Below are positions 16,654-41,395 of a stretch of 53,507 nt of DNA, piece after piece. The position numbers and the translations under genes were made by a program. The DNA is from Lachnospiraceae bacterium (GTDB lineage: Bacteria > Bacillota > Clostridia > Lachnospirales > Lachnospiraceae). The stretch spans positions 1 to 53,507 of the forward strand of contig JAFYYN010000175.1 of assembly GCA_017557525.1 (NCBI GenBank), in the 5' to 3' direction. The notes below the pieces were generated by a model. The model was not told the origin of the DNA. It was given only the letters and a program-made list of their open reading frames with translations, and did not search any database. How positions within the stretch are numbered: the first letter of the stretch is position 1; each line of letters starts with the position of its first letter.

Positions 16654-19600
16654 ATGGCCAAAATGAGGATTTATGAACTGGCAAGAGAATTAGTAGAGAG
16701 CGGACTCGCTAAGGATTCAAAAACACTGAATACTGATATCATCAATTTACTTAGTCAAAACGGTATTGAGGGTAAAAGTCATTCAAGCGGAATTGACGAC
16801 AGCGAGGCTGATCTCGTAAGAAATCATTATAAAAGCAAGGGTGCTAAGCCTGCAAAGAAGGAAGCTAAAACTGAGACAAAGGCTGAACCTAAGCCTGAGG
16901 TTAAGAACGAAGCTAAGCCTGAGGTTAAAGCCGAAGCTAAGCCTGAAGTAAAGGCAGAGCCTAAGAATGAGCCTAAGACTGAAGAAAAGCCTGAAGTTAA
17001 AACTGAGGTTAAAACAGAAGCTAAGCCTGACACTAAGGATAACAATACAGAGAAATCAGCTCCTTCAGTAGTAAGACACCCTGAAAACAGTGAAAAGAAA
17101 GGTGCTCCCAAGCCCCATGTACCTGCAGGAAAGCTCATCGGTAAGGATGGAAAAGAGACTCCTTACTGGATAGCTAAGGATGGCAGGCTTGTTGCTATGG
17201 ACGGCAAGGCACTTCCTTTAAAGATGGGTCCCAATGGAAAGATTGTTAAGCTTGACGGTTCACCTCTTCAGAAAAGACCTGCTCCCGCACCCGCTCCCAA
17301 AAAGGATCAGGCAGATACAAAAGCACCTGAGAAGCAGGCAGTAGAACAGAATAATACTGAAAAGGCTCAGGAGAATCCTGTAAAGGAAACAGTAGAACAG
17401 GTAAAGACCGAAGTTACACCCGCACCTGCTGTTGAAGCTCCTAAGGAAGAGGTACATGATGAGGGACCTCAGCCTAAGATAGTTGGAAATATCTTTGAAA
17501 GCCTTGCTGCAGCAAAGGATAAGGAGCAGCAGATGAAGGAAAAACGTGCCCGCGAGCAGCAGGGACGTTCTGAAAGATTTGACAGAGGTAACCGTGGAGA
17601 TCGTGGAGATCGTGGCGACAGAAGACCCATGAACAATGACCGTAACGGCAGACCTCAGGGCGGCAGACCCGATGGCAGACCCGAGAGATCTGACAGACCC
17701 GCAAGGGACGGACAGGGTGCTCCTGACAGACGTGGTGATCATCGTCCTATGCAGGGCGGCAGACCCGATGGCAGACCCGGAGATAAGCAGGGTCGTCCTT
17801 TCGGTGACAGACCTCAGGGCGGCAGACCTATGGACAGAGACCGCAGAGGCGGTATGGGTGGTCCCGGTTTTGGTGATAAGGATAAGGATGACGACAGCAG
17901 GCGTTCATTCCCTTCAAAGCGTCCTTCAAAGCCCAGTGCCGACAGCCAGTTAAAGAGTGATTTAGGTACCCAGATCGGCAAGAATGACCGTGCAGGTAAG
18001 CTTAAGAATAAGGGTAAGGATAAAAAGGATAAGCGCGATTACGATGATGAGATGCAGAACTTAAAGAAGGATCCTAATCGTAAGGGTGCTTTCCAGAAGC
18101 CTGTTAAGCAGGTTGTTAAAGAGGAGGAAGATATCAAGGTAATCACCATTCCTGAGGTTATTACCATCAAAGAGCTGGCAGACAAGATGAAGCAGAATGC
18201 CGGTGCTATTGTTAAAAAGCTCTTCCTTGCAGGTAAAATGATCAATCAGAATTCAGAGATCACCTTCGAAGAGGCTGAAGAGATTGCTCTGGATTATGAG
18301 ATAATGTGTGAAAAGGAAGCTAAGGTTAACGTTATCGAGGAGCTCTTAAAGGAGACCGAGGAAGATCCCGAGACCTTAGTAAAGCGTCCTCCTGTTGTCT
18401 GTGTTATGGGTCACGTTGACCATGGTAAGACTTCACTGCTTGATGCCATCCGTTCTACAAACGTTACTGCTCGTGAGGCAGGTGGTATCACACAGCATAT
18501 CGGTGCTTACATGGTTGAGATCAACGGTGAAAAGATCACATTCCTTGATACACCCGGACATGAGGCATTTACTTCCATGCGTATGCGTGGTGCCAAGTCC
18601 ACAGATATCGCTATCCTTGTGGTAGCTGCCGATGACGGTGTTATGCCACAGACTATTGAGGCTATTAACCATGCAAAGGCTGCAAACGTTTCTATTATCG
18701 TGGCTGTCAACAAGATTGATAAGCCCGGTGCAAATATTGAAAGAGTTAAGCAGGAACTTACCGAGTACGGCTTAGTTGCTGAGGACTGGGGCGGTGATAC
18801 CGTTTTCGTACCTGTTTCTGCTAAGACTCATGAGGGTATTGAAACCCTGCTTGAAATGGTACTTCTTACTGCTGACGTTCTTGAGCTCAGGGCTAATCCT
18901 GACCGTAAGGCTCGTGGTATCGTTATCGAGGCTGAGCGTGACAGAGGTAAGGGATGTATCGCTACCGTTCTTGTACAGAAGGGTACTTTAAATGTTGGTG
19001 ATTATGTTGCTATCGGTGCTTCTCACGGACGTATCCGTGCTATGATCGATGACAACGGCAGACGTGTTAAGATTGCTACTCCTTCAACTCCTGTTGAGAT
19101 CCAGGGTCTTGATGAGGTTCCTAATGCAGGTGAGATCATGATGGCTGTTGCTGACGAAAAGGAAGCAAGGACCATCGCTGAAGCATTCATCGCTCAGAGC
19201 AAGGAGCAGAAGATTTCTGAGACTAAGGCTAGACTTTCTCTTGACGGTCTGTTCTCGCAGATCGAGGCCGGTAATGTTAAGGAACTTAACCTTATCATCA
19301 AGGCTGACGTTATGGGTTCTGTTGAAGCTGTTAAGCAGAGTCTGGTTAAGCTTTCCAATGAGGAAGTTGTTGTTCGTGTTATCCACGGCGGTGTTGGTAA
19401 CATCAATGAGTCCGATGTTAACCTTGCAGGTGCTTCCAATGCTATTATCATCGGTTTCAATGTTAAGCCTGATAATACTGCTAAAGATATTGCTGAGCAT
19501 GAGGGCGTTGAGATCAAGCTTTACAAGGTTATCTACAATGCTATAGATGATATCGAGGCTGCTATGAAGGGTATGCTTAAGCCTGTTTACGAGGAGCGTA

Positions 19601-19887
19601 TCATTGCTCACGCTGAGGTTCGTCAGTTGTTTAAGGCCAGCCAGGTTGGTATCATTGCAGGTTCATTTGTTCTCGATGGTAAGATTGAGAGAGGTTGCTC
19701 CGCTAGGATCACTCGTGAGGGTACTCAGATCTTTGATGGTCCTCTTGCTTCTCTTAAGAGATTTAAGGATGATGTCAAGGAAGTTGCTGCTGGCTACGAG
19801 TGCGGTCTTGTTTTCGAGAAGTTTACTGATCTTGCTGAGCTTGACCAGATTGAGTTCTACAAGATGGTTGAAGTTCCCAGAACCTGA
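16654..19887 (+). CDS. infB: Translation initiation factor IF-2 with long disordered N-terminal region
   Basis: 1077 residues, much longer than the roughly 700 of B. subtilis. Residues 1-50 form an IF2N domain ([18 protein letters not shown]). Residues about 65-140 are lysine/glutamate/proline repeats (units like AKPEVK). Residues about 300-430 are Arg/Gly/Asp-rich ([10 protein letters not shown], repeated GGRPDGRP). A second IF2N domain, [20 protein letters not shown], is near 505. The G domain starts with [14 protein letters not shown] (586-599), followed by [11 protein letters not shown] and NKIDKPGAN. Domain IV closes the protein with [17 protein letters not shown]. It delivers initiator tRNA to the 30S subunit. 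The repeats are in frame and the G domain is intact. Confidence 0.98.
17560..17860 (+). repeat. In-frame RG/GRPDGRP-coding repeats inside infB
   Basis: CGTGGAGATCGTGG-type repeats near 17590-17625 encode RGDRGD. GGCGGCAGACCCGATGGCAG recurs at about 17661 and 17756, with a related copy near 17818. They encode a glycine/arginine-rich segment like those of RNA-binding proteins. Their tandem nature makes length variation between strains likely. Confidence 0.7.
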
Positions 19888-19906: not shown

Positions 19907-20156
19907 GGCTATGTGTAGTACCACATTACTACGGAAAACCATTATCGTAAGCGATGATGCACTTTTACGACCGGATAATGTATCTTCGCTGCGGTCGTTT
20001 GCAAAACGTGTGTCCGATTGATATCGGACACACTAATGCTACACTCGGAAAACGATTTGGATAATCGTTTTCCGCCTTGCTACAATACATTACCGTTCGT
20101 AGTGCATCTATCACTTACTTTATGTTTTCCTACGTAATACGATACTGCACATAGCC
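19907..20156. repeat. 250-base nested palindrome between infB and rbfA
   Basis: The gap 19888-20227 (340 bases) holds no gene. The outer arms GGCTATGTGTAGTA (19907-19920) and TACTGCACATAGCC (20143-20156) pair with a single wobble. The next blocks also match inverted: GATGCAC, ACGA, CGG and TAATGTAT occur in order on the left (about 19953-19984) and in inverted order on the right (about 20080-20107). At the tip are two perfect hairpins: GTGTGTCCGAT / ATCGGACACAC (20008-20033) and CGGAAAACGATT / AATCGTTTTCCG (20046-20074). Smaller hairpins occur in the left arm, such as ACGACCG/CGGTCGT. No T-run follows. It may be a MITE-like element or a structured RNA in the operon transcript. Confidence 0.75.
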
Positions 20157-20227: not shown

Positions 20228-20614
20228 ATGAGAAAGAATAGTATAAAAAATATACGTATAAATCAGGAAGTTCAGAAAGAACTAAGCAACTTAATTCGTA
20301 CAGAAGTTAAGGATCCCAGGATTTCTCCCTTAACTACTGTAGTCAATGTTGAGGTTGCTCCTGATCTTAAGACTGCTAAGGTATATATAAGTGTTTACGG
20401 AGATGAGAAGGCTCAGGCTGATACAATTAAGGGCCTTAAAAGTGCAGCTCCGTTCCTTAGAAGTCAGTTAGCTCACAATATGAATATGAGAAATACTCCT
20501 GAGCTGCACTTCATTGGGGATCAGTCTATTGAGTATGGTGTTAATATGTCACATCTTATTGATGAGATTACTGCTGATCTTAAAGATGATGAAAACTCAG
20601 ATGATGAAAATTAA
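20228..20614 (+). CDS. rbfA: 30S ribosome-binding factor A
   Basis: 128 residues, the usual size. Conserved segments are INQEVQKELSNLIRTEVKDPRI, the KH-type strand AKVYISVYGDE and LRSQLAHNMNMRNTPELHFIGDQS. It binds 16S rRNA helix 1 and assists 30S maturation. Its ribosome binding site GAAAG is weak. It is separated from infB by the 250-base palindrome, though these genes are normally close together. Confidence 0.97.
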   Translation: MRKNSIKNIRINQEVQKELSNLIRTEVKDPRISPLTTVVNVEVAPDLKTAKVYISVYGDEKAQADTIKGLKSAAPFLRSQLAHNMNMRNTPELHFIGDQSIEYGVNMSHLIDEITADLKDDENSDDEN

Positions 20615-41361: not shown

Positions 41362-41395
41362 AGTGTGACAAGGGGACGGTTCTCTTGTCACACTT
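41362..41395. repeat. REP-like palindrome, GTGTGACAAGGGGACGG type
   Basis: GTGTGACAAG (41363-41372) pairs with CTTGTCACAC (41384-41393), flanking GGGACGGTTCT. I recall this sequence type as a dispersed repeat in Clostridia that accompanies REP-associated transposases. With TTCTTATTTTTATT after it, it can serve as terminator of the upstream gene. Confidence 0.7.

Follow-up and report, generated by a model that had tools for sequence, protein, structure and literature searches.

Intergenic palindromes of several kinds have been described in bacteria. The REP, BIME and REPIN sequences, which occur with RAYT (TnpA-REP), are intergenic palindromes, many of them downstream of genes, and are held to be non-autonomous mobile DNA; REPs measure 20–40 bp and carry a GTAG or CGTC tag (PMC3733652). 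The ERIC and YPAL repeats of enterobacteria are likewise intergenic palindromes, of large size (their models have lengths of 140 and 168), and ERIC is predicted to form a single long stem-loop (PMC2267715). Outside this group, template switching has been proposed to make and mend the hairpins of RNA genes, the stems being kept paired by copying at the DNA level (PMC8794818), and the mitochondria of Nematomorpha are described as containing long coding palindromes with long perfect inverted repeats (PMC6649704).

Here we analyse a palindromic element located between infB and rbfA in the window, that is, the whole 53,507-nt stretch of a Lachnospiraceae contig (JAFYYN010000175.1), together with its relatives in other genomes. 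Like REPs, the element is intergenic and located downstream of genes (by crude ORF calls, which were possible at 49 of the 63 sites). However, it is about 245 nt long, lacks a GTAG or CGTC tag in the consensus of its foot, has a three-way tip and shows no visible link to Y1 genes. Compared with ERIC and YPAL, it is longer, contains an inner loop that is conserved and a tip of two hairpins, and belongs to Lachnospiraceae. Whereas the template-switch hairpins lie in RNA genes and the palindromes of Nematomorpha in coding genes, the element is a dispersed bacterial repeat with covariation nearly free of wobble pairs. Its outline also recalls the T-shaped terminal hairpins of parvovirus type, in which a long stem carries two small hairpins at its tip, but the likeness is one of shape only, and the element is not known to have a replication gene or a free form.

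Structure of the palindrome between infB and rbfA

The whole element spans 250 nt (19907–20156, + strand), as defined by inverted-repeat and fold analysis and by its match to the family model. The upstream gene is infB, encoding IF-2 (16654–19887, +; NCBIfam TIGR00487), with 19 nt between its stop codon and the base of the hairpin, and the downstream gene is rbfA (20228–20614, +; NCBIfam TIGR00082). The left and right outer arms (19907–19939 and 20124–20156) are 33 nt long and 79% complementary to each other; their sequence varies among copies, with complementarity kept. They lead to a conserved asymmetric inner loop, recognised in alignments A1–A3, whose left side lies at 19940–19953 and right side at 20110–20123. 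In the tip, a strand conserved in the family alignments (19983–20007) precedes hairpin 1 (20008–20033), which in this copy has 11 perfect base pairs and the loop TGAT. Hairpin 2 (20046–20074) has 12 perfect base pairs and the loop TGGAT. Both are supported by inverted repeats and pair statistics, and across the family hairpin 2 (helix 13) has 99.8% of its cells paired, with no G-U among the listed pair types.

Nineteen inverted repeats at distances of up to 250 nt were reported for the window, and the element is the longest of them. Its minimum free energy is −111.2 kcal/mol on the plus strand and −125.9 kcal/mol on the minus strand, with z-scores of −11.1 and −12.6, respectively, and none of 200 shuffled sequences folded as well on either strand. 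The initial annotation had proposed a 250-base nested palindrome with two perfect tip hairpins and without a T-run, to be checked against shuffled sequence; the arms, the hairpins, the fold and the neighbours assigned by NCBIfam show this palindrome to be real, and indeed no T-run follows it. The annotation had also noted that CGGAAAAC occurs twice and suggested growth by internal duplication. The repetition is present (12 nt, 92%), but growth by duplication is unsupported, because the family consensus differs between the two places (TAAAACC and CAAAAATCG in the aligned family).

A dispersed repeat family

The BLASTN search recommended in the annotation found the palindrome repeated both within its own genome, in three further strong copies, and in congeners: matches occurred in 8 of 61 genomes including its own, all of the same genus. 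A covariance model (R1) was built from 24 copies, among them the copy in the window, which it matches at 19933–20130 (E = 1.7e-40). At E = 0.001, R1 gave 131 matches including fragments, which came from 9 of the 24 genomes of the genus: 15 in G000, 22 in G001, 21 in G003, 20 in G006, 32 in G008, 11 in G013, 6 in G020, 3 in G010 and 1 in G017. These counts are lower bounds, as part of the candidates were scored and many of the genomes are incomplete. R1 found no copy in the other 15 genomes of the genus. The analysed set comprised 115 copies with E up to 1e-10 in fetched loci (104 from 100 loci in alignment A3 and 11 from 11 loci in alignment A4), and the 16 matches outside it were fragments, copies with inserts, or unfetched. 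By similarity of their flanks, the 115 copies fell into 63 sites, 28 of which held copies from at least two genomes and were thus common to different species.

A typical copy is a long hairpin of about 245 nt, in which a long copy-specific stem is followed by the asymmetric, conserved inner loop, then by another variable stem and finally by the three-way tip with its two hairpins. The median length under our fold rule was 247 nt, with a range of 149–369 nt over the 115 copies, the shortest being those in which the rule stopped early; 54 of the 115 end symmetrically about 25 nt beyond the model. Departures from this build include loss of the tip or of one half and additional hairpins within the tip. 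The shortened copies L258 (without its tip) and L260 and L264 (each without one half) occupy sites at which the copies of other species are whole. In three copies (L265–L267), a second small hairpin repeat of the GTCRTAAGGAATCTTCCCACTAC...GTAGTGGGCCCCTCCTTACGAC type lies inside the tip, and at L030, L023 and L126 pairs of elements in inverted orientation are found 170–190 nt apart by model ends. The U-tract of an intrinsic terminator is generally lacking after the stem: at least five T in the seven bases after the nominal base were seen in just 5 of 105 copies.

A pattern search, which recovers the near-identical form only (66 of the 115 copies), matched 65 stretches of named genomes. These were metagenome-assembled genomes labelled Lachnospiraceae and mostly derived from ruminants, with three exceptions. 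The stretches beyond Lachnospiraceae labelled Deltaproteobacterium and Pseudomonas (L198 and L225) were discarded as they fail the family model, whereas one labelled Ruminococcus sp. (L207) does match it. As the flanks of L207 share 98.5% and 91% identity with those of locus L268 in G001, this label is probably a binning error. A viral origin was rejected, none of the 11 pattern matches in IMG/VR matching the model. In Rfam (release 15), no family reached its gathering score across the window. A lax search of 10 loci gave two weak matches only, both located next to the L022 and L016 elements rather than within them, and a lax search of 7 loci again gave weak matches, including the microRNA precursor model MIR831 on the L065 element (34.5 bits; E = 0.00087; gathering score of this model, 100), which we take as a chance likeness to a hairpin. 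No title or abstract start describing such a family was found in the open-licence PMC literature. The remark in the annotation that no named family fits therefore holds, and the family, which carries no name within the literature and databases searched, is best filed as new.

Covariation of the arms with few wobble pairs

In alignment A3 (104 copies), double changes were found at 52 of the 55 pairs and 95.9% of the cells were paired, neither value being reached in 500 shuffles; when the structure was slid along the alignment, the paired share fell to 30–46%. The cells comprised 5411 Watson-Crick, 57 G-U and 71 A.C combinations, so that G-U made up 1.0% of the standard pairs, and with the RNAalifold structure the corresponding numbers were 5582, 61 and 90. 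The RNase P RNA of the genus, taken as a control, gave 922 Watson-Crick, 164 G-U and 4 A.C combinations, i.e. 15% G-U (RNAalifold). The control used 11 of the 17 loci found, chosen for their distance from contig ends; all 17 score below the curated cut-off of RF00011, probably reflecting another type of RNase P, and their alignment has long invariant stretches. Selection for an RNA fold on one strand should leave G-U far more frequent there than A.C. In the element family, G-U was not clearly above A.C on either strand. The family in the genus thus has the compensatory pair changes of a structured RNA but does not tolerate G-U while avoiding A.C. This combination of strong covariation with 1.0% G-U, no commoner than A.C, suggests that the complementarity of the arms is kept at the DNA level rather than in RNA.

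Comparison of 34 orthologous pairs of copies revealed 325 double Watson-Crick changes, against about 85 expected from the per-side rate. One-sided changes numbered 359 (66 G-U, 94 A.C and 199 other), and there were 82 double changes to a non-pair, some of them due to misalignment. Adjacent double changes were also more frequent than in shuffled data (82 against a mean of 41, sd 5.5 and a largest value of 61 in 1000 shuffles, with the L207/L268 pair excluded); this clustering fits the copying of tracts and also regional differences in rate. For some orthologs, such as L060 and L054, the compared cells are identical although the flanks have diverged to 89% and 92% identity, indicating that selection or constraint acts as well. 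Among 1x1 mismatches in a Watson-Crick-only fold, A.C exceeded G.T (141 against 64, counted over non-independent cells that are in part inherited at fixed columns). Taken with the unequal folding of the two strands, this bias hints that a single strand matters, either as DNA or as RNA.

Compensatory changes are widely accepted as proving that an RNA fold is functional. In this family, more than 100 copies show overwhelming covariation without the wobble pairs seen in RNase P RNA, which points to copying between the arms at the DNA level. Template switching in bacteria could accordingly be studied in this family as a natural test case, and counting G-U against A.C would provide a simple check for RNA discovery based on covariation.

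Related elements in other genera

In a sample of 250 genomes of the family Lachnospiraceae, R1 weakly matched four other genomes. The loci in G177, G073 and G120 have the same build, with a long near-perfect stem and two tip hairpins, and in the G089 locus this build is not clearly formed. Elements of the same build thus occur in other genera of Lachnospiraceae. G177 contains four strong places. G120 has a family of its own, with 25 BLAST pieces (some being the reverse reading of one copy) and 10 model matches. A model made from G120 alone (R2) matched two copies in G000 (E = 3.8e-9 and 8.6e-9) and one place with the same tip in G093, which makes a kinship of the tip and the inner loop likely across the genera of G000, G120 and G093; R2 had no match in G177 or G073. 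The strand counts in G120 were mixed, with 30 G-U and 9 A.C under the RNAalifold structure and 5 G.T and 16 A.C among the 1x1 mismatches. An order-level sample of 295 genomes added no carrier, its one positive being the genome of the window itself. The elements add a class of large palindromic repeats, with a shared tip architecture, in several Lachnospiraceae genera.

Genomic setting

The orientations of the neighbouring genes were taken from crude ORF calls, which covered both neighbours at 49 of the 63 sites. These were distributed as 23 ++, 14 +-, 9 -- and 3 -+. The left neighbour was thus in the sense of the element at 37 of the 49, and 3 lay in divergent gaps; by these counts, the copies sit behind genes and avoid divergent gaps. 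At tandem sites the sense orientation was preferred (23:9; p = 0.02), and of the 42 left-sense sites, 17 had the nominal base 7–17 nt past the stop codon. These two tendencies could reflect a role in mRNA. Promoter-like sites (at least 10/12) aimed into the element were present in 2 of 88 and 1 of 90 flanks, and sites aimed away from it in 9 of 88 and 3 of 90. No promoter of the element's own was therefore seen in these flanks, and an independent non-coding RNA gene was rejected as a candidate. Our terminator detector, which finds few overall, marked 25 of 177 tandem and 12 of 53 convergent ordinary gene ends, and 3 of 33 and 1 of 11, respectively, where an element is present.

The infB-rbfA site is occupied in five species (G000, G008, G006, G003 and G001). 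In three related species the element is absent, and the gap between the two genes measures −3 nt (G010), 120 nt (G007) and 71 nt (G017), in agreement with the earlier impression that the palindrome was inserted. The five elements measure 248, 250, 305, 331 and 391 nt, the longer ones being longer in both arms together. The extent to which the stem is traced affects this lengthening: a stricter fold rule gives 248, 313, 290, 331 and 247 nt, i.e. from 247 to 331 nt. A joint lengthening of two arms is hard to obtain from single mutations.

Nature and origin of the family

We consider, at a probability of roughly 60%, that the palindrome of the window is a copy of a new dispersed family of intergenic palindromic repeats of about 245 nt, similar in kind to REP, ERIC and YPAL, in which the arms are recopied. 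Such non-coding DNA would have spread behind genes in the past by means of an enzyme acting in trans, with mobilisation probably passing through the tip. The conserved inner loop and three-way tip would then be sites of protein recognition on a single-stranded DNA hairpin or a cruciform. The copies, 28 of whose 63 sites are common to several species, are now largely inherited in place. During replication the palindrome may fold back, so that one arm is recopied from the other by template switching or by repair of the folded strand; we infer this recopying from the near absence of G-U, the clustering of double changes and the lengthening of the arms on both sides. Since infB and rbfA lie on one strand, the copy between them would be transcribed as a large hairpin, and it may alter mRNA processing as a side effect. 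A more far-reaching version, which we put forward only tentatively, is that the elements form a class of self-correcting DNA hairpins in several Lachnospiraceae genera, with a predicted enzyme site at the inner loop and tip and with arms rewritten by template switching, passing RNA covariation tests without being RNA.

The initial annotation had considered both a structured RNA and a MITE-like element. The former would be an RNA of mRNA 3′ ends or operon gaps (a processing site, a barrier to exonucleases or a protein-binding RNA) selected in the sense of the upstream gene. It would account for the sense preference at tandem sites, for the position shortly behind stop codons and for the very strong covariation and conserved loops; moreover, at the L003 site G000 carries the element where six relatives (all those printed) have, by eye, a hairpin resembling an intrinsic terminator. 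However, the pair statistics, with covariation but hardly any G-U in comparison with the RNase P RNA of the genus, weaken this reading. The sense strand is also the less stable one, the minus strand folding better in 22 of 24 copies, and in 15 of 105 copies a terminator-like hairpin separates the gene from the element, which may thus escape the transcript of the gene. The absence of copies from 15 of the 24 genomes of the genus is a further difficulty, and we regard a structured RNA as unlikely. A chromosomal site bound by a protein of replication, segregation or the nucleoid, and kept for that function, meets the same difficulty, although it would fit the 28 sites common to species and the number of matches, which is 15–32 in five of the nine carriers. 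GC skew showed no bias beyond that of the neighbouring genes (positive at 19 of 22 ++ sites, 1 of 13 -- sites and 4 of 8 convergent sites, among 44 copies in regions selected by the analyst and not at random). A replication-strand bias was accordingly rejected, and such a site seems very improbable.

The element is short, non-coding and dispersed with inverted ends, as MITEs are, and its 54 canonical copies have a weak end consensus (C|GG...CC|T), which would suit a transposase recognising the ends. Nevertheless, the outer arms are not conserved between copies as terminal repeats would be, and no convincing target-site duplication was detected in the canonical copies (18 tests were made, and 4 of 300 shuffles equalled the highest score). 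Y1 transposases (PF01797, the sole family tested) seem an unlikely partner, as they do not track the copies: they occur in 12 of the 24 genomes, several of them incomplete, and G001 and G003, both likewise incomplete, have zero Y1 matches with 22 and 21 element matches. A classical MITE is therefore improbable, and what stands of the MITE-like proposal is a non-autonomous dispersed repeat. The element is best filed among the palindromic intergenic repeats of bacteria, as a new and large variant, and neither as an RNA family nor as a proven MITE.

Sequences in the vicinity of the elements

The gene for RNase P RNA has an element immediately upstream in three species (G000:C42:53671-53865, G006:C28:80030-80224 and G008:C42:9784-9977). 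The window contains a further small palindrome, AGTGTGACAAGGGGAC-G-GTTCTCTTGTCACACT, at 41362–41394. Its motif GGGACGGTTC, with up to one mismatch, is found no more than 150 nt away from 12 of 105 element copies, and in three cases (L055, L090 and L096) it stands on both sides in inverted orientation; the 774 kb of fetched regions contain 45 matches, some of them the same places. The 3998-nt contig of L255 (G006:C63) carries inverted element cores at both ends, probably as a result of an assembly break at repeats, and includes, alongside other ORFs, one of 335 aa whose motifs resemble those of a cytosine DNA methyltransferase. Another dispersed motif, approximately GTCATYCTGARCGAAGYGAAGRATCTT, is present in the infB-rbfA gap of G007 (L141) and beside two element copies, in the flanks of L020 and L032.
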